Shown: piece by piece, positions 1 to 12,242 of the stretch | Numbering within the stretch: the stretch's first letter is position 1 | Layout of the letters: each line of letters opens with the position of its first letter | NCBI RefSeq assembly: GCF_002188635.1 | Contig: NZ_NINX01000018.1 | Span: 1 to 64,000 of the forward strand | Source: Pigmentiphaga sp. NML030171 | GTDB taxonomy: Bacteria > Pseudomonadota > Gammaproteobacteria > Burkholderiales > Burkholderiaceae_B | Reading direction: 5' to 3' | DNA length: 64,000 nt | Translations under genes and position numbers: made by a program | The notes under the pieces: model-generated | The model's database searches: none | What the model was told of the DNA's origin: nothing | Seen by the model: only the letters and a program-made list of their open reading frames with translations

Positions 1-91
1 CGACTACATCGAGCGGTTCTACAACACAAGGCGCCAGCACTCAACGCTGGGATACGTCAGCCCCATGCAGTTCGAGGCGGCGGTTTGTTAG
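1..91 (+). pseudogene. C-terminal end of IS3-family transposase (partial, cut by window edge)
   Basis: The first 30 codons read, in frame, as the end of a DDE integrase-type transposase (OrfB of the IS3 family), with the hallmark segment ERFYNTRRQHSTLGYVSP followed by a stop. This segment lies just after the catalytic Glu of IS3-family OrfB proteins and is among their most conserved parts. The rest of the gene is left of the window, so it cannot be decided whether the element is intact. The GC-rich stretch just after the stop (about 92-125) probably includes the element's terminal inverted repeat, but the partner end is not visible. It marks a mobile-element junction beside the NACHT gene. 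Confidence 0.8.
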
Positions 92-311
92 GTTAAACAA
101 CCTGTCCGGAGAGGCGGGGCAAGCCCATTCCTTTCTGACGTCGAAGACTACTTACTATCGCAAGCAGTCAATGAGAGCATATATGGAGGCATAGCTGCTC
201 CGCGCGAAACCGCTATCGTCTAGGCCATTAGCCTGACATAACCTCGTCAATAGAGCACTGCAGAGCGGGACGCCCCTTCCTTAGCCGGTGCTACACACAA
301 ATAGGGAAATC
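92..311. other. Intergenic region between IS end and NACHT gene
   Basis: The first 30-40 bases probably belong to the terminal repeat of the IS3-type element. The rest is A/T-richer than the core genome and should contain the promoter of the NACHT gene. No convincing -35/-10 pair or operator was recognised. An AGGGA sequence 4-8 bases before the ATG at 312 is the best ribosome-binding site. Confidence 0.4.
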
Positions 312-2924
312 ATGGAAAAGTCAGAGTTCGACGTTGCCATCGCCATAGCACAGACGCTAAGGGTCAGCCTTGATGATTTTGCACCGGGCGCCCGGGCCAT
401 CGAGTGGGAGGGGGAGCTATGGATTTTCGTCAACGATCCATCGATCTCGACACCTGAAGATCTGAAGCGAACGCCGAGCATCACCCAGGCATCCCTGAAG
501 GAAAGCGTCGTTGCAATCCACTACGTACTGGTCGACTGGATTCCCACCGGCCAGGAACGGGTCACACTGGGACTAGGCCGCACTGCTGAAACAGTAAGGA
601 TGGCGCTTCGCAAACTTCTCGACCTTCCTTCCACGTTTGACGCTTCACAGGAAGGGCTGATCAAAGAGGCGCTCGAACCCATCAGCGCGCTGGGAATCGC
701 ACCGGTACAAATGACCTTGGTAGACCAGAGCGGCGAACGGAAGCCTAACGCTGCGGATACGTTAGCGCAGCACGTTGGCTCCGATGCAGGTATGGTCTTC
801 ATTGAGGCCGAGGCAGGAAAGGGCAAGACTGTATTGCTAGCATCCGCAGCCCAGACGCTGCGGACGGATAAACGAGGAAAGCTTCCAGTCTTCATCCCGC
901 TGAGAAGACTGCCTCTCACTGCTGGTATTGGGTGGGACAGCATTACTCAATTGATCGGCATCGTCGGCGAGGGCTCGGACCGATTAGTCCGAGCCATCAA
1001 ATCTGGACTGGTCTCGGTATTCCTGGACGGTATTGACGAGGTTGCCGGCCGATATGATAAGAATCTCATTCGTGACTTGCTCGAGTTGATCACCCAACGC
1101 CTAGGTTCCCAGGACTCGATGGTCATCCTCTCTGGCCGACGGACCGAGGCTCGTCATCTCGATAGCAGTGACTGGACGATCCTCAGCGTGGATTTGCCCG
1201 AGGCCGCGAGTGCCGACTTCAAAGCTTACGTAGGCGCCGTGTTCGATGGCCTCGTATCGCAGAGCAAAGCCACCGGCGCAATCGAACTGCCACAGGAGTA
1301 CGAAGATCTGATCGGCACTAGGCCGGCTGACGAGCAAGTCGTCCGAGAGAGGGATGACATTGTAGATTGGATCCTCGGAGTCTTCCCCGACGTGGCAAAG
1401 GAGCCATCGCTATTCTTCGTCCAGGGCCTAGCAGCGATAGCCATCGGCCGTCGAGCCGGCAACCGTGCGCCACTGCGTAACGACAATGGGATTTTTGTTC
1501 CGAGAGTCTGGGACGTTTGCCTCAGCGCAGCTGTATTCGCTTGCATTCGAGAAGCATCAAAGGTAGACAGCATCGCCGCTCAAGAGTATTCGGTTAAGAA
1601 TCAAATGCGGGTGCTGCAGGGCTTGGCTGCGCTCTCATCATCCCCACCCGGGACCATCGCGCCGACACCGAATGAGCTCGTTCCGGGCGCGTTCGAAGTT
1701 GACCCTGTCAATTCGCCCGAAGTTCTTGTCGCCATCACGCGGCAAAACGCAAAACACGCACTTCTTTACGCTACGGAGGCGGCGGGAGGATATCGCCCGC
1801 AGTTCCTTAGCGATTGGATACGCTGCGCCCTTCTGGCCCAGACATTTAGGGCCAACAGTTCGCTGGGGCACATGGGTCCTGAGGAAACCTTGGAGCTTGC
1901 CGCCTCGGCAGAGCAAGCAAAGTACACATTCGAGTCGCTCCTGCCATCTGCTCTCAATGACGACGACGTGGTTGATCGGTGGCGCCAAGCGTTCGACCGT
2001 GCAATCGCAGCCGGACGTGAGTCAGCAAGTGCAAATCTATGGTTCCTTCGGGCAGGAGTGGGTGATGAGCGCTTGTCAGCCCCAGTGCACCCTCCACTGC
2101 CCCTAGCAGAGATTACAGACGTCGAGTTCTCAGGTTTTGTTATCAATGACGAATTGAGCGGCAGCGACTTTCTCCTCGACGGTACACGATTCGTGAATTC
2201 CTCCATTTCCAATGTACGTCTCAAAGACGTCTCCCTGCGTGACGTCTCGTTTGAGAACTGCGTAATCACGAACATTGAGCTGCTCGACTGCGAAGGTCCA
2301 ATTTCTTTCGAAGGCTGTAACCTGAACGAAGTAAAGATCACGAACACTAGGTCTAAGAAGAAACCAGCGCTGAAGTTTTCTGACTGCACATTCATCGGCA
2401 ATAAGAACTCGCTCACCCAAGACGTGGCGACCTATGGCGAGTCCGACTATGGGCCGCCCGCCGTGTTCGAAGAGTGCGTGTCGGATGTTGACATCGACCA
2501 ATTGATCTATGGTGAGTGGTCTGCCAAGGAAAACGCTGCGAGGGGCATCAGCACAAGGAGCGTGAAGACCTCTAGTGACGCGGAAGCTTGCTTGCGACGC
2601 GCGCTGCGTGCCTTTTTTCCGTCGCATATTGGAGACAGCAAAGCTTTGCAGGCGCGTCGCTACATACGGCTATCTGCACTTGGTCGAGGAAGCATGCCTG
2701 CTGGTGCCCCCGGTCAAGAAGAACTGCAGCAAATCTTTGAGAGCGTTGGCTTCACGACCGGTGGCAGGTCTAACCACCTGTATGCCCCATGGTCGAGCGT
2801 GGTCGGAGCAAGTAAATCTGGCATGGAGCTCAGGACCGAACTGATTGATTTCCTTCGCGATGGAACCCAGCGCGGCCCGGCTGTCGATCAAATGATTTCT
2901 CGGCTTGAAGGCCATTTCTCATGA
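312..2924 (+). CDS. NACHT-domain P-loop NTPase with pentapeptide-like C-terminal region; candidate antiphage protein
   Basis: An 870-residue STAND-type protein. Seen in the sequence: residues 1-160 form an uncharacterised N-terminal region without a recognisable nuclease, TIR or protease motif. A Walker A loop (EAGKGKT, about 167-173) follows, then a Walker B of the NACHT type (FLDGIDE, about 236-242). Residues about 601-690 show short repeats such as VRLKDVSLRDVSFENC that resemble a pentapeptide right-handed beta-helix. The last 130 residues are a separate mixed region. Known for the family: bacterial NACHT proteins include antiphage sensors that oligomerise after recognising a phage product. 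Inference: the gene is a single-gene defence system, because it sits in an integrase-bearing island beside an IS end and an AbiE pair. Base composition is visibly less GC-rich than the core genes. The frame opens further to a GTG at 288, but the ATG at 312 has the better ribosome-binding site. Confidence 0.8.
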   Translation: MEKSEFDVAIAIAQTLRVSLDDFAPGARAIEWEGELWIFVNDPSISTPEDLKRTPSITQASLKESVVAIHYVLVDWIPTGQERVTLGLGRTAETVRMALRKLLDLPSTFDASQEGLIKEALEPISALGIAPVQMTLVDQSGERKPNAADTLAQHVGSDAGMVFIEAEAGKGKTVLLASAAQTLRTDKRGKLPVFIPLRRLPLTAGIGWDSITQLIGIVGEGSDRLVRAIKSGLVSVFLDGIDEVAGRYDKNLIRDLLELITQRLGSQDSMVILSGRRTEARHLDSSDWTILSVDLPEAASADFKAYVGAVFDGLVSQSKATGAIELPQEYEDLIGTRPADEQVVRERDDIVDWILGVFPDVAKEPSLFFVQGLAAIAIGRRAGNRAPLRNDNGIFVPRVWDVCLSAAVFACIREASKVDSIAAQEYSVKNQMRVLQGLAALSSSPPGTIAPTPNELVPGAFEVDPVNSPEVLVAITRQNAKHALLYATEAAGGYRPQFLSDWIRCALLAQTFRANSSLGHMGPEETLELAASAEQAKYTFESLLPSALNDDDVVDRWRQAFDRAIAAGRESASANLWFLRAGVGDERLSAPVHPPLPLAEITDVEFSGFVINDELSGSDFLLDGTRFVNSSISNVRLKDVSLRDVSFENCVITNIELLDCEGPISFEGCNLNEVKITNTRSKKKPALKFSDCTFIGNKNSLTQDVATYGESDYGPPAVFEECVSDVDIDQLIYGEWSAKENAARGISTRSVKTSSDAEACLRRALRAFFPSHIGDSKALQARRYIRLSALGRGSMPAGAPGQEELQQIFESVGFTTGGRSNHLYAPWSSVVGASKSGMELRTELIDFLRDGTQRGPAVDQMISRLEGHFS

Positions 2925-3190
2925 CGTTCTGCGTTTCGTTGGCATTGCGCTATTCGGGAGACTGCCATCGCGCCGTTCAACCCGATGCAATGACCCGTTC
3001 CGTATCGGTTAATGAAAGAAGGCAGTTCTGTTGTAAGGGGCGCCCCCGCTGAGGAAGCAAGGGGCTCGACAGAAGTCCGGAACAAGGCTTCGCGCGCGAA
3101 ACAGACGATCGGGGCCACTACCCTAGGCCTCCGCATCATGCAAAACGAGGACCAAAGCTGCATCACCTAGCGCAACAAAAAGAGCGCAGC
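2925..3190. other. Intergenic, no gene seen
   Basis: This gap lies between the convergent NACHT and radC genes. No coding frame with a recognisable product was found. The only frame of some length (minus strand, 2888-3166) has no homology I recognise and overlaps the NACHT 3' end. Confidence 0.4.
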
Positions 3191-3211
3191 AAAAAGGGGG
3201 CCGAAGCCCCC
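3191..3211 (-). terminator. Rho-independent terminator of radC
   Basis: Read on the minus strand, GGGGGC and GCCCCC pair perfectly around a TTCG tetraloop and are followed by five T residues. The hairpin begins five bases after the radC stop codon. The opposing NACHT gene ends 267 bases further on. Confidence 0.85.
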
Positions 3212-3215
3212 GAAG

Positions 3216-3725
3216 TCAGAGCAGACCGCGCTCTGCAAATGATGTAGTAGCACCGCCGGCAACGATGATGTGGTCCAGCGTGCGCACATCCACCAGTTCC
3301 AACGCTGCCTTGAGCTGCCGCGTCAGCGCCCTGTCCGCAGTGCTGGGCTCTGGATGCCCACTGGGGTGGTTGTGTGCCAGGATCACTGCCGCCGCATTGG
3401 CCCGCAGCGCCTCCTTAACGACCTCGCGCGGATGCACGGATGCGCTGTCGATGGTGCCGCGGAACATCTCGGTGTACTCGATCAAGCGATGCTGTGTGTC
3501 GAGGAACAGGACGGCGAACACCTCATGCTCAAAGCCTGCCAGTTTGGCGCGCAGGTACTCCTTCACCACGGCTGGTGAACTGAACTCGGTACCGCGCTGC
3601 ATCTTCTGGTCGATGGCCTCGCGTGCCGCTTCAAGGATCTGTTCGACAGAGGCCAGCCGATAGCGGCCTTGGGTATCGCGCACGTGCAGCAGCGAATCGA
3701 AAGAGGAAAAGGACAGTTGCGACAT
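3216..3725 (-). CDS. radC: RadC-like JAB/MPN domain protein (short island form)
   Basis: A 169-residue RadC-family protein. The JAMM metalloprotease-like signature is visible: Glu68, then HNHPSG at 118-123 and Asp131 as metal ligands. Chromosomal RadC proteins are about 220 residues with a helix-hairpin-helix N-terminus. This shorter form is the type carried by prophages and genomic islands (YeeS/YkfG-like). A biochemical role is not settled for the family, and the historical link to DNA repair is doubtful. The gene is transcribed alone towards a strong terminator and faces away from the alpA-like gene. Family call secure, function unknown. Confidence 0.85.
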   Translation of the reverse strand: MSQLSFSSFDSLLHVRDTQGRYRLASVEQILEAAREAIDQKMQRGTEFSSPAVVKEYLRAKLAGFEHEVFAVLFLDTQHRLIEYTEMFRGTIDSASVHPREVVKEALRANAAAVILAHNHPSGHPEPSTADRALTRQLKAALELVDVRTLDHIIVAGGATTSFAERGLL

Positions 3726-4131
3726 GATCGTGCTCCGGTTGCTCGGGCGGAATTGCCCGGAACCGGCGCCTCACGGCGCAGCGCAAGCAGTCAGGGATCA
3801 CAGACGGCCGACAGGCCGCAAGCGTGCGAGCACGCGCAGTCATTGACGGCGAGAACGCCGTGATACGGTGAAGGGAACAGCAAGCCCGCCCCCTCCATCT
3901 CCAACGAAGAATTGGAAAGCAAGCGCAGCGCGCAGGCCCGGATCAGCGATCCAGGCCGGAGGCATCAGGGATCAAAGCCGGATGGCCGCGACTCGCAGAG
4001 GCGCGGGGCGCAGCCCGCGAGCCCGACGGCGGGATGCTCCTTTCCTACGCCCGGCCTTGCTCCAGCAAGTTGTCCCAATCGCCACCGATAGCCACCATGA
4101 CGTTCATTGCGAACTCCATGGAATCTGGACG
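3726..4131. other. Divergent regulatory region between radC and the alpA-like gene
   Basis: About 400 bases without a credible gene. An open frame runs through part of it into the alpA-like gene, but its upstream part is low-complexity Arg/Ala/Pro and looks like GC-bias coding. Visible structure: a perfect hairpin ACGGCG-AGAA-CGCCGT at 3846-3861, and the 11-mer GCCACCGATAG at 4081-4091, which recurs exactly in the attachment region at 8173-8183. The stretch must hold the start signals of both flanking genes. Confidence 0.5.
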
Positions 4132-4494
4132 ATGGCTGCCGACTCAGAACCGCTCAGGATCTCAGCACAACCCACTGCTTCCCTGCCCCGCCCCGGCACC
4201 GAGCAGTACGCCGAGCTTCCGCAGTTCCCGAAGGGCTCGCCGCTGCCTTTTCGCCGCACGATCCGCCGCCGCGAACTGCATCAGATCGTGCCGTTGGCGG
4301 AAACCACCATCTACGAGATGGAGCAGCGCGGCGAGTTTCCCCGGCGCTTCCGGCTGACGCCGCGCTGCGTGGCCTGGGATCTGGAAGAAGTCGAAGCCTG
4401 GATAGAAGGCCGCAAGCAAGCCTCGCGATCATCAGAGACCGACATATCGCCAGGCCCGGACGTGAGGCTGCGTCGGCATCGCCCTGTTCGATGA
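4132..4494 (+). CDS. AlpA-family DNA-binding regulator / excisionase-like protein
   Basis: A 120-residue protein whose core (residues about 41-95) is an AlpA/MerR-like winged helix-turn-helix. The IRRREL segment, the recognition-helix region TTIYEMEQRGEFP, and the ending WDLEEVEAWIEGR are typical. AlpA proteins act as excisionases or as activators of the island integrase. The frame is open upstream to 3868, but that extension is compositionally biased, so the ATG at 4132 was chosen. The motif GCCACCGATAG lies 41-51 bases before this start and recurs beside guaA, suggesting a shared binding site (inference). Confidence 0.75.
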   Translation: MAADSEPLRISAQPTASLPRPGTEQYAELPQFPKGSPLPFRRTIRRRELHQIVPLAETTIYEMEQRGEFPRRFRLTPRCVAWDLEEVEAWIEGRKQASRSSETDISPGPDVRLRRHRPVR

Positions 4495-4519
4495 AATCGC
4501 CGTCTAGCGTCCACGGCGA

Positions 4520-4762
4520 CTACCCGACATCCACCCTGACCAGTTCTGCCCCGGGCAGCACCTGTGCCATCTGAGCCGCGGCAAGCGCGACCGCAGCATC
4601 GCGGCCCATTGCCTCCCGGCTGAAGGCCAGCGCAACGTGCCCAGGCCGACCCCAACCCACCGTGGCATCGGCACAGTCGCTGCCCGCCAGCCGGCGCAGG
4701 ATCTCATCCTGCAAATCCAGTTCAGGATTCAACGCATAGACCAGTGTGAAATCGTGAACCAC
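4520..4762 (-). CDS. Small conserved hypothetical protein downstream of abiEii
   Basis: An 80-residue acidic protein with no signal peptide or membrane segment. It has a regular alpha/beta character (VHDFTLVYAL at the start, a helix near DLQDEILRRLAG, then HVALAFSREA). It follows the AbiEii gene on the same strand after a 35-base gap, so the two are probably co-transcribed. I associate proteins of this size and pattern with integrative elements next to AbiEii, but no function can be assigned. It could be an accessory part of the toxin-antitoxin operon or a passenger. Confidence 0.6.
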   Translation of the reverse strand: MVHDFTLVYALNPELDLQDEILRRLAGSDCADATVGWGRPGHVALAFSREAMGRDAAVALAAAQMAQVLPGAELVRVDVG

Positions 4763-4797
4763 CGCGATCTCTCCATCCGCTTGTATTACCCCCTGTG

Positions 4798-5742
4798 TCA
4801 GCGCGCCTTGATGCGTGCCAGCACGTCCGCCAACTGCCCACGATCCGCCGCACGTTTGGCGGCCGTGCGCTGTGCCAGGTTGTGCAGCTTGCGCCGCACG
4901 CCGGGCAGATCGGCCGCATGGGTAAGGCCGATCAACCCGAAGTCCGGCTGCTCATCCTCAACCGATTCCAGAAAGGCGCGCGATGGCTCGTCCAACCAAT
5001 GCGCCACGCGCGCCAACAGGCGCTCGCGGCTTTCCAACAAGGCTGTCGCTTCAATGGGCTCAGCCGTCATGCCCTTGAAGTGAGCGTCGAAGGTGGCCTC
5101 GAAATCCGCAGGTACGCGCGGCGCCAGCATTTCCCATGCTGGCTTAGGACTGCACGTCAGGTACACGAGAAAGGTCCGCCAAAGACCTGCATCCGCCCGC
5201 TCATCCTCCAGCAGCAAGCCCACGTCGAACAGATCGCGCGGATGCTGCCGCGACAATGCCGCCGCCAGCTTTCCGGCATACAGGTCGGCGAAGTCCAGTA
5301 CCTGCACTTCGGCGAAGCCGAACGCCTCCTCCACCTTCGGGCGCACGACCATGGCCCGCACCGGATGCACCGTCCCGCGCATCACCGGCGTCGTCTCAAT
5401 CTGCACACGCGCTCGGCCGCGACTGGCTACCAGCCGGGTGACCGCCCCGCCTTCGCCCGCTGAAGCTTGCACCTGCAATTGCAAAGGCCGGGCGCGCATC
5501 GCGTCGGCCAGTCGTCCGAGTGCTTCGGCGATCAGCTTCGCATCCTCGGCATAGTCGTGCACCGGCAGCCAGGCCAGGTCGATGTCCACCGACAAGCGCG
5601 GCAGGTCATGCTCGAACAGGTTGATGGCGGTGCCGCCCTTGAGCGCGAAGCGCGGCTCTTGGGCCAGCACCGGCAGGATCTCGACCAGCAGCCGCACACG
5701 GTCCGTGTAGCGCCGATCCCCTCGATCAAGCCAGGTGCTCAT
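4798..5742 (-). CDS. abiEii: AbiEii-type nucleotidyltransferase toxin
   Basis: A 314-residue DNA-polymerase-beta-fold nucleotidyltransferase. The pattern LKGGTAIN (35-42) followed by SVDIDL with Asp53 and Asp55 supplies the catalytic motifs. A second conserved block, LYAGKLAAALSRQHPRDLFD, lies near residue 180. AbiEii is the toxin of the type IV AbiE system, first known as a phage abortive-infection system; related enzymes transfer nucleotides to tRNA. The start is the ATG overlapping the end of abiEi by 17 bases, indicating translational coupling. All visible active-site residues are present, so the toxin is probably functional. Confidence 0.88.
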   Translation of the reverse strand: MSTWLDRGDRRYTDRVRLLVEILPVLAQEPRFALKGGTAINLFEHDLPRLSVDIDLAWLPVHDYAEDAKLIAEALGRLADAMRARPLQLQVQASAGEGGAVTRLVASRGRARVQIETTPVMRGTVHPVRAMVVRPKVEEAFGFAEVQVLDFADLYAGKLAAALSRQHPRDLFDVGLLLEDERADAGLWRTFLVYLTCSPKPAWEMLAPRVPADFEATFDAHFKGMTAEPIEATALLESRERLLARVAHWLDEPSRAFLESVEDEQPDFGLIGLTHAADLPGVRRKLHNLAQRTAAKRAADRGQLADVLARIKAR

Positions 5743-6547
5743 CGAGGTCTCCCGGCAAGGTGATCTGGTAGGTCGGATGCAGGCGCCCGCCGGGCACCAG
5801 CGCGCGCTTGCCCCGGCCCAGATCGACATCTTCCAACAACACATGCGACAACCACGCATGCCGATGACGATCGGCCAGCGCCAGGAACAGCCGCTTGGTC
5901 TTGATGCTGCGGCAGTGACGCAGCAGCAGGCCGACGCGCTGCGGGCGCAGCGTGGTCATGGCCTGCATCAGCGCATCGGCCTCGTAGACCCCCGCCGCAT
6001 CCGACACGCCATCGCACAGCTCCAGCATGGCCCGCTCGGGGGTCGAGCAGACCAAGGCATCGACACCAGGTGCGGCAGAGTGCAAGGCCAGACCTACCTT
6101 GGATAGCGCCGTCTCGGAGACTTCCGCAGTGAAGGACACGGCCGGCAGATCGAACGGCCCTTTGCCCTGGTACTCGAAGCGCTGCTCCATGGACAGCTTG
6201 CCGACCCAGCCCGGCGGAGGCTTCGATCCGTAAAGCGTGATCGTCCCAGCATCGCCCAGGCGCAAGTAGTGCTCGTGCCCTTGCAAGGCCAGCGCAAAGC
6301 GTCCCCCGACATGCAGTGGCATGCCCTCCCCGACCTGCAGGCTGCGGACCACCCCATCCCATTGCAGCCGCCCGCCGGCGCGCATGTACACGCCACGCGC
6401 CGGCGACACCAGCCAGCCGCTGTCCACATAGCGCGCGACCAGGCTGTTGGAGTAGTCATGCGCGCGCAGCCAGCGGCTGGACACCAGGCGGGTATCGCCG
6501 AGTTCGGCCAACAAACGGTTCAATTTTCCTGAATTTTGAGTATCCAT
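5726..6547 (-). CDS. abiEi: AbiEi-family antitoxin / autorepressor
   Basis: A 273-residue protein of the AbiEi family: an N-terminal winged-helix region (residues about 5-60, including RLLAELGDTRLVSSRWLRAH) and a C-terminal antitoxin domain. AbiEi neutralises AbiEii and represses the operon by binding inverted repeats in the promoter. The start was set at the ATG of MDTQNSGKL because it gives the normal N-terminus. An in-frame ATG pair at 6691 has a much stronger Shine-Dalgarno (GGAGG) 11 bases after the integrase stop and would add 48 residues, so the start is not certain. The gene follows the integrase on the same strand and overlaps abiEii. Confidence 0.85.
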   Translation of the reverse strand: MDTQNSGKLNRLLAELGDTRLVSSRWLRAHDYSNSLVARYVDSGWLVSPARGVYMRAGGRLQWDGVVRSLQVGEGMPLHVGGRFALALQGHEHYLRLGDAGTITLYGSKPPPGWVGKLSMEQRFEYQGKGPFDLPAVSFTAEVSETALSKVGLALHSAAPGVDALVCSTPERAMLELCDGVSDAAGVYEADALMQAMTTLRPQRVGLLLRHCRSIKTKRLFLALADRHRHAWLSHVLLEDVDLGRGKRALVPGGRLHPTYQITLPGDLDEHLA

Positions 6548-6559
6548 AGTGCTCAAAAT
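6533..6559 (-). promoter_or_regulatory. Perfect inverted repeat over the abiEi start codon (putative AbiEi operator)
   Basis: Arms ATTTTGAG (6533-6540) and CTCAAAAT (6552-6559) are perfect complements separated by 11 bases. The centre falls on the chosen ATG (6545-6547). AbiEi antitoxins are known to bind inverted repeats in their own promoter, so this is the natural autoregulatory operator candidate. The surrounding 60 bases are distinctly A/T-rich, with a TATAAA-like sequence just upstream of the repeat on the minus strand. Confidence 0.6.
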
Positions 6560-6702
6560 ATCAGTTTTATAAACCTCCGCCAAGGACCATGAGTTTGAAA
6601 CTTCAGTAAAAGGATCATCCAGAGTGATCTCTTTCTGACAAATGCAAACCCCGGTCTGCCAACCAGAAGGGGTTCCAGTTAAGGTCATCATGCGCTCCTC
6701 CC

Positions 6703-7962
6703 TCACAAAGCCGGGCTGAGCACCGGGACCGACACGTCCTCCGGCACCAGCTTCGGCACATGCGTGCGCCCATCGACCCACGCCTCCACCATGTCGGCCC
6801 ACTCTTGGAGCATGTGCCGTCGCGGCCCGGCGTACTCAGCCTTGTTGTAGACCGAGCGCGACGTCCGGCTGCCTTCTTCGTGCGCCAGGCACTTCTCGAT
6901 CCAGTCCCCGTTGAAGCCCACCTCGTTGAGCAGTGTGGAAGCGGTGCGCCGCAGGTCATGCACCGTGAATGGCTCCAGCGGCAACCCGGCTTCCTTCGCG
7001 CGGGAGCCAATGAGCTGGGTCACCCGGTTAAGCGTTGCATGCGACATGCACCGGTCGGGGTCATAGCGCGACGGCAGCACGAATCGCGAGCCAGCCGCGC
7101 AGGTGTGTAGGGCCACGAAGATGTCCATCGCCTGTCGCGACAGATAGACCACATGCGGCTTGCGTCCCTTCATCCGCACCTTCGGGATCGTCCAGGTGGC
7201 GTTCTCGAAATCCACCTCGTTCCAGGTGGCCTCGACCAACTCGCTTTTGCGCACCATCGTCAGCAGGATCAGGCGCAAGGCCAACCGGATGGTCGGATAG
7301 GACGCGATGGTCTCCAGTTGGTGGAAGGCCAGCCGGATCTCCGCCGGCGACAGCGCCCGGTCCTTGGGAACGAAGGTCGCAATCGAGGCCGCCTTCACGT
7401 CGTCGGCCGGGTTGGCGAGCCGTTCGCCATGCAGGATGGCGAAGGCATAAACCTGCTTCACGATGTCTCGGACGTGGATGGCGGTGGCCGGTGCGCCGCG
7501 CGCCTTCACCTTGTTGCACAACGCCCGCAGGTCGTCGGGGGTGACTTCCTTCAGCTTCCGATTCTGGAAGACCGGCAAGATGTCGCGGTCGATGATGTGC
7601 TTGCGCATTGCCCGGGTACTGTCGGCCATGCGGGCGTCGGCCAGCCAGCGTTCCGTCATCTCGCCGAAGGTCCTGGCGGCCGTCAGCCGCCGCTTGGCCC
7701 GCTGCTTCTCCAGCGCAGGGGAAAGGCCCTGATCGACCGAGCGCTTGGCGTCGAGCAGCCGCTCCCGCGCCATGGCCAGCGACATGCCGGCCGGTCCGTA
7801 CCGTCCGAGCGTGAGCGTCTCGCGGCGCCCGTTGAGACGGTAGTCGTAACGGAAGGTGATGGTACCGGCGGTCGATACCGCCACGTACATGCCATCGCGG
7901 TCAAAAACCTTATAAATCTTGGACTTAGGCTTGAGGTTACGCAGTGCTGTGTCGGTGAGCAT
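6703..7962 (-). CDS. P4-type tyrosine recombinase (island integrase)
   Basis: A 419-residue site-specific recombinase. Residues about 1-90 form the DUF4102 arm-binding domain, 100-190 the core-binding SAM-like domain and 205-385 the catalytic domain. Visible catalytic residues are Arg238 (VRKSEL), His335 and Arg338 (HDLRR), His361 and the nucleophile Tyr372 (VYNKAEY). Enzymes of this family insert islands at the 3' ends of tRNA genes or, as here, of guaA. The gene starts 302 bases from the guaA stop, the expected place for the integrase of an element inserted there. All key residues are present, so it should be active. Confidence 0.93.
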   Translation of the reverse strand: MLTDTALRNLKPKSKIYKVFDRDGMYVAVSTAGTITFRYDYRLNGRRETLTLGRYGPAGMSLAMARERLLDAKRSVDQGLSPALEKQRAKRRLTAARTFGEMTERWLADARMADSTRAMRKHIIDRDILPVFQNRKLKEVTPDDLRALCNKVKARGAPATAIHVRDIVKQVYAFAILHGERLANPADDVKAASIATFVPKDRALSPAEIRLAFHQLETIASYPTIRLALRLILLTMVRKSELVEATWNEVDFENATWTIPKVRMKGRKPHVVYLSRQAMDIFVALHTCAAGSRFVLPSRYDPDRCMSHATLNRVTQLIGSRAKEAGLPLEPFTVHDLRRTASTLLNEVGFNGDWIEKCLAHEEGSRTSRSVYNKAEYAGPRRHMLQEWADMVEAWVDGRTHVPKLVPEDVSVPVLSPAL

Positions 7963-8264
7963 TGAGGGTGTTCCTCCTGTTCGTGACGGCTTTTACCGTC
8001 AGGGACCTGGAGACCCGTTGATGCTCGGAAAGCCGCATGAAATAAGCTTTCCTGAAGAGTTTTTTACCGTCAAAGACCGGTTCGGTCTCAATAGTAAACA
8101 GGAAGGTCTGGATCCGACCTTCGGGGGCTTACCGTCAGTTCTGTCGCCGACCCGTTCTGCTGGCCGGCGATAGCCACCGATAGAAAACGCAACTTATACA
8201 TTTAAAATCAACAAGTTAAGTCACTTCTACCGATACCTGGCGATAGCCTTCGAAAGACGCTCCG
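7963..8264. other. Island attachment region between integrase and guaA, with repeated motifs
   Basis: No gene is present. Two repeat sets are visible. TTACCGTCA occurs three times as a direct repeat (at about 7993, 8064 and 8129), spaced 71 and 65 bases, the first facing an inverted TGACGG at 7984-7989. GGCGATAGCC occurs twice (8166-8175, 8239-8248), each next to ACCGATA. The layout fits arm-type integrase sites and an excisionase site next to the crossover site in guaA. Assignment to particular proteins is inference. Confidence 0.6.
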
Positions 8265-8285
8265 TCATTCCCACTCGATCGTCGC
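8265..8285 (-). other. Probable attachment core in the last codons of guaA
   Basis: The integrase orientation and the abrupt change from island to core genes at the guaA stop place one island junction here. Insertion keeps the guaA 3' end intact (the protein still ends ATIEWE). The 3' end of guaA is a known integration hotspot for P4-type integrases. The exact crossover bases cannot be fixed, because the partner att copy lies outside the window. Confidence 0.6.
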
Positions 8286-9893
8286 CGGCGGCTTTCCCGA
8301 CACGTCATAAACCACCCGATTCAACCCCCGAACCTCATTGATGATCCGGTTCGAAGTCCTTCCCAGCAACGCATACGGCAAATGCGCCCAATGCGCCGTC
8401 ATGAAGTCGGTGGTCTGCACCGCGCGTAGCGCGACGACGTAGTCGTACGTCCGCCCGTCCCCCATCACGCCCACGGACTTCACGGGCAGGAACACGGCGA
8501 ACGCCTGGCTGGTCAGGTCGTACCAGTTCTTCCCGACCTCCTCGGCCGCGCACAGGCCCGCTGCGGCATCCTGTTCGGTTGCCCGGGTGCCTCGCAGTTC
8601 TTCGATGAAGATCGCGTCCGCGCGGCGCAGCAGGTCGGCGTATTCCTTCTTCACCTCGCCCAGGATCCGCACGCCCAGGCCCGGCCCGGGGAACGGATGC
8701 CGGTAGACCATGCCGTGCGGCAGGCCGAGCGCGATGCCGAGCTTGCGCACTTCGTCCTTGAACAGCTCGCGCAGCGGCTCGAGCAGTTTCAGGTGCAGGG
8801 TATCGGGCAGGCCGCCGACGTTGTGGTGCGACTTGATGGTGACGGCCTTGCCGGTCTTGGCGCCGGCCGATTCGATCACGTCGGGGTAGATGGTGCCTTG
8901 CGCCAGCCACTTGGCGCCCTTGAGCTTGGCGGCTTCGCGCTGGAAGACTTCGACGAATTCCTTGCCGATGATCTTGCGCTTGGCCTCGGGGTCGGTTTCG
9001 CCGGCCAGCTTGCCCATGAAGTCGTCGGTGGCGTCGACGTGGATGATCTTCAGGCCCATGTTTTCGGCGAAGGTCTGCATGACCTGCTCGCCTTCGTTCA
9101 GGCGCAGCAGGCCGTGGTCGACGAAGACGCAGGTGAGCTGGTCGCCGATGGCCTTGTGGATCAGTGCGGCCGCCACGGAGGAATCGACGCCGCCGGACAG
9201 GCCCAGGATGACTTCGTCGCTGCCGACCTGTTTGCGGATGGCCTCGACGGCTTCGCTGACGTAGTCGGGCATGTTCCAGTCGGTGCCGCAGCCGCAGATG
9301 TCGTGCACGAAGCGCGACAGCAGGGCCTGGCCCTGGACGGTGTGGGTGACTTCGGGGTGGAACTGGACGGCGTAGTAGCCGCGGTCGACGTCGGCCATGC
9401 CGGCGATGGGACACGAGGCGGTGGAGGCCATGAGCTTGAAGCCGGGCGGCAGTTCGGTGACCTTGTCGCCGTGGCTCATCCAGACCTTGAGCATGCCGTG
9501 GCCTTCGGGGGTGGCGAAGTCCTGGATGCCGTTCAGGAACGGGGTGTGGCCGTGGGCGCGGACTTCGGCGTAGCCGAATTCGCGGTGGTCGCTGAAGCTG
9601 ACCTTGCCGCCCAGTTGCATGGCCATGGTCTGCATGCCGTAGCAGATGCCGAGCACGGGCACGCCGGATTCGAACACGGCCTGGGGGGCGCGCATGGAGG
9701 CTTCGTCGTAGGCCGAGGCGTGGCTGCCGGACAGGATGACGCCTTTGAGGCCCTTGGCGAGCTCGCCGCGGACGAAGTCGTCCGAGACGTCGTAGGGGTG
9801 GATTTCGCAGTAAACCTGCGCTTCGCGCACGCGGCGGGCGATGAGTTGGGTGACTTGCGAGCCGAAGTCGAGAATCAGGATGCGGTCGTGCAC
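8265..9893 (-). CDS. guaA: GMP synthase (glutamine-hydrolysing)
   Basis: Converts XMP to GMP using ATP and glutamine, the last step of guanine nucleotide synthesis in the cytosol. The 542-residue protein has an N-terminal class I amidotransferase domain with nucleophile Cys84 (GICYGMQ) and the His179/Glu181 pair (FHPE). The ATP pyrophosphatase P-loop follows (SGGVDSS, 233-239), then the C-terminal dimerisation domain. Translation starts with GTG, three bases after the guaB stop, so the two genes form an operon. The 3' end is the insertion site of the neighbouring island and remains complete. Confidence 0.97.
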
Positions 9894-9896
9894 GCT

Positions 9897-11417
<1,521 letters not shown>

Positions 11418-11479
11418 TCAGCCTTGCTGTCAAGAGGGTTTATATGCGGGAAAACCCACGGTCCACACGCCGGGCCCGT

Positions 11480-11818
11480 CTAGCGGCCCGGTCCGCCCCG
11501 CCTGGCGCCTGCCGACGCCGCCTTGTGCGCGGCTCGCCGGCGGCGGGATTCCTTGGGGTCGAAGACCAGCGGGCGGTAGATCTCGACCCGGTCGTGGTCG
11601 TGCAGCACATGGTCCAGCGGCCGGCGGCGGCCATGGACGCCGGTGCCGGCCTGGGCGGGGTCCACGCCCGGGTAGGCCTGGCGAAAACCGCTGGCCAGGA
11701 TGGCGTCGGCCAGGGTCGCGCCCCGGGGCAGGACGAGTTCCCGCATCCAGGTTTCCGACGCATCCGCATAACAGACGCTGACGGCCACGGTGCCGCCCCG
11801 CCCCGCCTGGCTATCCAT
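11480..11818 (-). CDS. rnfH: RnfH-family ubiquitin-like protein (RatB)
   Basis: A 112-residue protein with the small beta-grasp RnfH domain in residues about 10-92 (VAVSVCYADASE at the start, RVEIYRPLVFDPKE at the end). A basic tail of about 20 residues follows. RnfH/RatB is found next to RatA and SmpB in proteobacteria; its role is unclear. It overlaps the end of ratA by eight bases, so translation is likely coupled. The frame is open further upstream, but the ATG at 11818 gives the family N-terminus. Confidence 0.85.
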   Translation of the reverse strand: MDSQAGRGGTVAVSVCYADASETWMRELVLPRGATLADAILASGFRQAYPGVDPAQAGTGVHGRRRPLDHVLHDHDRVEIYRPLVFDPKESRRRRAAHKAASAGARRGGPGR

Positions 11819-12242
11819 AGCAGGCTTCGGCCCGCTGGGTGAAGGCGTCGATGAAGCTGGTGGCGATGCGGTTGAACACGGGGCCGACCAGGGTTTCCAG
11901 CGCACGGCTGGAGAACTGGTACTGCATGGTGAAGACCACCTTGCAGGCGTCGTCGGCCAGGGCGTGGAATTCCCAGACGCCTTCCAGCAGCGAGAACGGC
12001 CCGTCCACCAGGTCGAGCTGGATGCGGTCGGGATAGTGGTGGGTGTTGCGGGTGGTGAAGCGCTGGCGCAGGCCCGCGAACTGGATCACGACCGAGGCGC
12101 GCATGCCGTTCTCGTCGCGCTCGTGCACCTCGGTTCCGCCGCACCAGGGCATGAATTTGGGGTAGTCCTCGACCTTGGCCACCAGGTCGAACATCTGGGC
12201 GGCGCTATAGGGGACCAACACCGAACGTTGCACTTTATGCAT
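11811..12242 (-). CDS. ratA: RatA/Coq10-family START-domain protein
   Basis: A 143-residue SRPBCC (START-like) protein, full length for the family and starting MHKVQRSVLVPYSAAQMF. Members include RatA, reported in E. coli to bind 50S subunits and block 70S formation, and mitochondrial Coq10, which binds ubiquinone. Either activity is possible; the conserved context rnfH-ratA divergent from smpB is that of RatA. The divergent smpB start is 58 bases away, so the two transcripts share a short promoter region. Confidence 0.85.
   Translation of the reverse strand: MHKVQRSVLVPYSAAQMFDLVAKVEDYPKFMPWCGGTEVHERDENGMRASVVIQFAGLRQRFTTRNTHHYPDRIQLDLVDGPFSLLEGVWEFHALADDACKVVFTMQYQFSSRALETLVGPVFNRIATSFIDAFTQRAEACYG

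Follow-up and report, generated by a model that had tools for sequence, protein, structure and literature searches.

Bacterial STAND proteins, as the accessible text of two sources has it, follow a common scheme in which a cue is bound, nucleotide is exchanged, the protein oligomerises and an effector is activated (PMC12169576, PMC13092281). The usual layout puts the effector first. DS-8, reported by DefensePredictor, is described in the accessible portion of that report as a NACHT protein with a metallophosphatase domain, whose NTPase is needed for defence (PMC13092281). In the available excerpts of three further papers, STAND NTPases and pentapeptide repeats figure among the modules of conflict systems that occur together or replace one another, though not in the form of the protein analysed here (PMC7159879, PMC8195603, PMC10853773).

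The stretch of DNA analysed here (the window, 64,000 nucleotides of Pigmentiphaga sp. NML030171) carries at 312-2924 a gene that probably encodes a bacterial relative of the immune-receptor switches of animals and plants, on mobile DNA beside phage-defence genes. The favoured reading, with a probability of about 0.68, is that of a single-gene, horizontally moving, bNACHT-like STAND NTPase of the NACHT clade, protecting the cell from phage or other invaders; the defence role is suggested by family logic and by the neighbourhood. It is argued from Walker A and B motifs intact in all seven family members, from NACHT as the best Pfam NTPase family, from the location in a guaA island and from defence genes at four of the seven loci, as well as from the spread over three proteobacterial groups, the discordant tree, the low GC content and the absence of the gene from 199 close genomes. 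The protein is most likely a new variant within the bNACHT kind with an unusual layout. With the bNACHT proteins, as described in the accessible text, it shares the central NACHT-type STAND NTPase, the single-gene form and a defence-type neighbourhood, and with clade 14 the lack of a recognisable N-terminal effector; compared by description, it differs in that Pfam finds neither SNaCT nor NCH1 and in having a pentapeptide-like region and an unmatched C-terminal domain (PMC12169576). Its likeness to DS-8, going by the available part of that report, is that of a putative NACHT defence gene outside the classical list (PMC13092281), but the metallophosphatase domain was not found in the NACHT-STAND protein. 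The gene and its parts are:

312-2924, + strand: gene of the NACHT-STAND protein (870 aa; ATG start, no internal stop)
312-779, + strand: N-terminal region (residues 1-156, of which 1-100 are poorly conserved and lack invariant charged residues)
780-1160, + strand: NTPase core (residues 157-283; Pfam NACHT; mean pairwise identity 0.70)
804-830, + strand: Walker A, EAEAGKGKT (residues 165-173; found in 7/7 members)
1020-1040, + strand: Walker B, FLDGIDE (residues 237-243; found in 7/7 members)
1512-1841, + strand: highly conserved stretch following the NTPase (residues 401-510; identity 0.70-0.71; 15 charged residues invariant across six members)
2112-2516, + strand: degenerate, acidic pentapeptide-like region (about residues 601-735; Pfam and MfpA profile match)
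2577-2921, + strand: separate conserved C-terminal domain (residues 756-870; identity 0.68; 51 of 115 residues invariant, 12 of them charged)

The gene is present as a single copy in its genome, and Met1 is aligned in all seven members of the family. The third codon position is the most divergent in 21 of 21 homologue pairs (0.247, 0.172 and 0.616 differences at positions 1, 2 and 3 between this gene and the Hydrogenophaga copy), so the gene evolves as coding sequence. This constrained pattern, together with the full-length frame and the complete NTPase motifs, makes a decaying or passenger gene with no present function quite improbable, even though an IS end and the contig edge adjoin the gene, a crude scan found no sigma-70-like promoter in 1-3300 (1.5 expected) and the Hydrogenophaga copy stops early, at 716 aa. 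No RNA family was found within 1-12000.

A NACHT NTPase with both Walker motifs had been named in a preliminary description of the locus, and it was borne out. FIEAEAGKGKT (163-173) and FLDGIDEV (237-244) recur in 7/7 members with conservative changes; each member carries EAEAGxGK[ST], with the Walker A lysine, and FLDGIDEV, a Walker B of the NACHT type, for which the rule is D-G/A/S-h-D-E. All seven have an alanine, Ala166, at the position of the first P-loop glycine. Pfam NACHT is detected in every member at E<=1 (best 2.9e-7); on the Pigmentiphaga protein it scores E 2.9e-5 with 24.4 bits, below the gathering cut-off of 26.7. It is the best Pfam NTPase family for these members, with nSTAND_NTPase5 second (7e-6). 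Residues 401-510 are probably the STAND arm; residues 284-600 gave no PDB sequence match. Residues 394-412, within the conserved region, reach a Kyte-Doolittle mean of 1.81, the usual membrane threshold being 1.6, and are taken as a buried helix, with a membrane segment as the alternative.

The pentapeptide-like region earlier noted near the C-terminus is upheld for about 601-735; residues 600-870, earlier marked for checking as one span, consist of two parts, 756-870 being separate. Pentapeptide_4 is found at E<=1 in 7/7 members, the best value (4.7e-7) being that of the Pigmentiphaga protein, where its 30.2 bits stay under the gathering cut-off of 38. A period-5 hydrophobicity test was borderline, with 12 of 200 shuffles reaching the real score, and other parts of the protein reach higher raw scores at periods 7, 9 and 10; in all seven members, the best period-5 stretch falls in this region. 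The family profile matched MfpA (6zt4) at E 2.1e-4 over 607-687, and the net charge of 601-755 is -8 to -13 in 7/7 rows, one of them truncated. Likeness to MfpA, Qnr and McbG consists of that profile match and the acidic region; here, the stretch is short, degenerate and set inside a STAND protein. MfpA binds gyrase, which is not implied for the NACHT-STAND protein, whose acidic region may instead be a scaffold or a protein-binding surface. NCBIfam hits to SV2, HalA and QnrD on this region (0.019-0.073) were discarded as weak. A 712-aa protein of genome G415 (L004:1060-3198, - strand) likewise carries a pentapeptide region and a tail behind its NACHT part, without a comparable N-terminal domain. 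Its tail was rejected as a distant relative of the C-terminal domain (hhalign probability 0.5%), and relatives of this protein were found neither in plasmids nor in one viral scan.

Conservation was mapped as mean pairwise identity among six full-length members. Identity is 0.38 for residues 1-100, 0.46 for 101-156, 0.70 for 157-283, 0.57 for 284-400, 0.70-0.71 for 401-510, 0.49 for 511-600, 0.53 for 601-700, 0.36 for 701-755 and 0.68 for 756-870, and the same regions hold 0, 2, 12, 6, 15, 4, 3, 0 and 12 invariant charged residues, respectively. Constraint is therefore strongest in the NTPase, in the stretch that follows it and at the extreme C-terminus, the C-terminal domain being about as conserved as the NTPase. 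Invariant residues in the six members number 11 in 1-100 (1 polar, 0 charged) and 51 in 756-870 (22 polar, 12 charged); a Fisher test on the charged ones gives p 0.0005, and without Phaeospirillum the counts are 2 and 17 (p 0.001), both p values being indicative since the rows are related. By sequence, neither end domain resembles anything in the libraries searched. The N-terminus, earlier left without assignment, indeed has no significant relative in Pfam (best 0.07) or PDB (best 0.14); the C-terminal domain gave no PDB match at E<=5 and a sole Pfam hit (0.081, in one member). Among 329 sampled genomes, the N-terminal profile and the 756-870 profile each matched only the gene's own product. 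The weak hits themselves (Nic96 at 0.07 and Win1 at 0.14 for the N-terminus, ECM1 at 0.081 for the C-terminus) were discarded.

An enzymatic effector at the N-terminus (TIR, nuclease, protease or HEPN) was rejected on the lack of a Pfam or PDB match and of any invariant charged residue in 1-100; a conserved enzyme at this end is unlikely because these residues are among the least conserved and hold no such residue. The earlier proposal of an N-terminal effector with a pentapeptide sensor has become doubtful on the same count, none against twelve in the C-terminal domain. At rest, the protein would be closed and nucleotide-bound; a cue derived from the invader would relieve autoinhibition, ATP binding would drive oligomerisation, and the output would shut down the infected cell or the invader. 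The C-terminal domain may do a constant job, either output or the binding of a constant ligand. This is placed slightly ahead of the usual orientation because the first 100 residues hold no invariant charged residue and the last 115 hold twelve; the variable N-terminus would more likely be a recognition or adaptor part than an enzyme. The earlier architecture needs a third part and possibly a reversal. Taken as a whole, a reversed immune switch, in which a fast-evolving non-enzymatic recognition or adaptor part at the N-terminus precedes a NACHT motor, the acidic pentapeptide stretch forms a spacer or a DNA-like surface, and an undescribed, highly conserved C-terminal domain is the effector, is a tentative and rather unlikely construction. 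A chance somewhat short of even is given to the ordinary orientation, as in bNACHT and Avs, in which residues 1-100 or 1-156 would be a non-enzymatic or very divergent effector and the pentapeptide-like region with 756-870 the sensor. That arrangement agrees with bNACHT proteins as the accessible text describes them, tripartite with the sensor C-terminal, and with clade 14 members that protect without readily discernible effectors (PMC12169576). A sensor of a conserved ligand can itself be conserved, but the low identity of 1-100 (0.38) and its 11 invariant residues, 1 polar and 0 charged, against 51, 22 and 12 for 756-870, count against it. The choice of orientation is thus a lean drawn from conservation, with the ordinary layout close in probability.

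The surroundings of the gene within the window are:

1-127, + strand: right end of an IS, with the tail of a transposase frame at 1-91 (IS3-type by eye)
3216-3725, - strand: RadC/JAB-like gene (Pfam RadC 1.3e-47)
4213-4491, + strand: AlpA-type regulator, part of ORF 3868-4494 (PDB 8c3t, E 2.7e-18)
4798-5757, - strand: AbiEii toxin (Pfam)
5726-6802, - strand: AbiEi antitoxin (Pfam; recognisable from residue 86-92 of the ORF)
6703-7962, - strand: tyrosine integrase (Pfam Phage_integrase 5.5e-22, Arm-DNA-bind_3 7.5e-19)
8265-8282, - strand: attL, at the 3' end of guaA
8265-9893: guaA, recognised by eye

The left arm of the island runs guaA, integrase, AbiEi, AbiEii, AlpA, RadC, NACHT-STAND gene, IS. 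An earlier placement in a guaA island next to AbiE holds, with integrase, AbiEi, AbiEii and RadC recognised by Pfam and AlpA by PDB sequence. The other repeat, attR, lies in contig C45 of the same genome (10903-10920), with 16 of 18 bases identical to attL. In the relative G007, guaA runs straight into the sequence right of the attR point; C45:10905-12537 adjoins guaA there at 90-91% identity with a 16-base overlap, which is the empty site. An integrase at guaA, an att repeat and an empty site in a relative, which together define a guaA-integrated island, were all found, and C45:1-10904 is its right arm. Left-arm-like sequence (integrase or AbiE) stands beside guaA in four of ten other genomes of the genus. 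The lower GC already remarked on was confirmed at 56.1% for the gene against 67.0% for the window, with a GC3 of 0.61 against 0.90 for guaA. The window starts at the contig edge (position 1 of contig C20), and the adjacent IS end was recognised again: six other contigs of this genome begin with a copy of bases 1-127 (five at 100%, one at 98%), similarity stopping at 127. Owing to the IS end and the contig edge, the upstream side of the gene is visible for 185 bases. The two island arms are separated by at least one IS and possibly by more. Reading the IS copies at C20:1 and C45:1 as a single insertion was rejected, since the three bases adjoining each end show no match of the kind that a target duplication would leave; further sequence may therefore separate them.

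The right arm carries at C45:712-10561 (L028) a tandem of genes for an MmeI-like type IIG enzyme, a DEAD helicase, a T5orf172/MUG113 (GIY-YIG-like) protein, a PHP/SMC-like AAA protein and an AlbA_2/RecG-C protein, possibly one defence operon. Of these, the PHP/SMC-like AAA protein is similar (30% over 210 aa, 2.5e-22) to the protein annotated as TrlF that neighbours the Azotobacter relative.

The search for relatives of the NACHT-STAND protein yielded six, 44-66% identical to it and spread over three proteobacterial groups. One is full length, with 60.6% identity by tblastn, on the conjugative plasmid pAcX50c of Azotobacter chroococcum (one in 72,556 records). A first pattern scan of genome contigs, with weak patterns, confirmed 0 of 123 candidates; a second, which drew its patterns from residues 364-505, confirmed 5 of 78, in Hydrogenophaga, Gulbenkiania, a Gluconobacter MAG, Janthinobacterium and a Phaeospirillum MAG. 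Such scans require exact patterns and miss relatives. Identity to the Pigmentiphaga protein across the six is 66, 59 (59 or 60 by alignment), 56, 56, 44 and 61%. Just one of 200 close genomes, its own, carries the gene, which is absent from the other 199. Full-length matches in sampled genomes numbered 1 of 369 (plus two partial), 2 of 399 (plus two partial) and 1 of 337 (plus one partial) and were this gene or already known members only; these sets may share genomes, and in those of 399 and 337 the genomes used as centres are counted among the known members. Partial hits L003, L016, L017 and L018 were set aside as resembling the NACHT or the pentapeptide part only. Searches of phages (at E<=0.1) and of E. 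coli (by DNA) yielded no relative, nor did five pattern-limited scans of viral collections, two of them with weak patterns. In the tree, the Pigmentiphaga protein joins Hydrogenophaga (98/99), and the alphaproteobacterial Gluconobacter MAG groups with two betaproteobacteria (98/100). This departure from the proteobacterial groups is consistent with transfer, bearing in mind that contigs of a MAG can be misbinned. The relative of Hydrogenophaga sp. IBVHS2 (L005:8912-11062) ends early, about 110 bases before the contig edge.

Four of the seven loci have defence or restriction genes within about 12 kb: the present one, Azotobacter (type I R-M, TrlF, YafQ/RelB), Gulbenkiania (HerA-like, NurA, an AbiEi-methylase fusion) and Janthinobacterium (a ZorD-like helicase, an HNH-type effector-like gene). 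By eye, no defence gene was noticed at the Gluconobacter and Phaeospirillum MAG loci, in the latter of which the relative comes after an enolase gene, and the Hydrogenophaga locus showed recombinase-like ORFs and an AAA gene only. On inspection, no neighbour common to the seven loci was seen, the upstream side of the present one being cut by the IS and the contig edge. The gene therefore appears to travel alone, and the single-gene behaviour proposed earlier stands. When the DNA on either side of the gene was compared with the six other loci, nothing matched beyond the gene itself, a weak comparison because even the gene's 5' part matched only one of the six. A 246-aa gene upstream of the Azotobacter relative was rejected as a partner, being unseen at the other loci and having no significant Pfam match. 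The placement of relatives on islands, on a conjugative plasmid and near recombinase-like genes would also suit a STAND NTPase that serves the mobile element itself (maintenance, transfer regulation or exclusion of rival elements); islands and plasmids carry regulators of their own, and rival-element exclusion would overlap with defence. This non-defence role is judged improbable, as the elements differ between loci with no transfer or integration gene common to the family, and Pfam detects no HTH or other regulator domain.

Known defence families offered no counterpart to the NACHT-STAND protein, which counts against the defence reading: PADLOC gave no fitting family (best Cas3e, E 0.01), nor did NCBIfam (best 0.019), and the NACHT and pentapeptide hits lie below curated cut-offs. 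The two loci of seven where no defence gene was noticed and the lack of relatives in the pattern-limited phage and viral searches weigh on the same side. Avs (AVAST) proteins share the STAND logic, but neither a nuclease or other Avs effector nor a C-terminal repeat region of Avs scale was detected here. The Avs clades raised in the preliminary description drew a blank: the Pigmentiphaga protein has no Avs hit in PADLOC, and Avs2 reached a non-significant E of 0.064 in two of the seven members. Both the Cas3e and Avs2 hits were discarded as weak. No description of the family was found in the literature searched, which covered few subscription papers. As for the suggestion of an undescribed architecture, the combination is unusual, but the co-occurrence of STAND and pentapeptide modules is already in print in the accessible parts of three papers (PMC7159879, PMC8195603, PMC10853773). 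Should the gene prove protective, it would add a NACHT family with two end domains new by sequence to Pfam and PDB, the C-terminal one being a candidate for a new effector or a new sensor of a conserved ligand, and the generality of the effector-first layout in bacterial NLR-like proteins could be tested.

Some neighbours of the relatives deserve mention in their own right. In Gulbenkiania mobilis, L006:4368-6254 (- strand) encodes an AbiEi-like N-terminus joined to a DNA methyltransferase (PADLOC AbiEi 3.3e-33, MTase_II 4.3e-19), beside the HerA-like and NurA genes. At L006:6412-8626, directly upstream of the NACHT relative, a gene for an NA37 nucleoid-associated protein overlaps one of 405 aa that has no Pfam or PADLOC match. 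In Janthinobacterium sp. FT58W, a DUF4747 gene followed by a 208-aa gene with no Pfam match (L008:6661-8176) lies beside the NACHT relative, and this pair is a candidate two-gene system.
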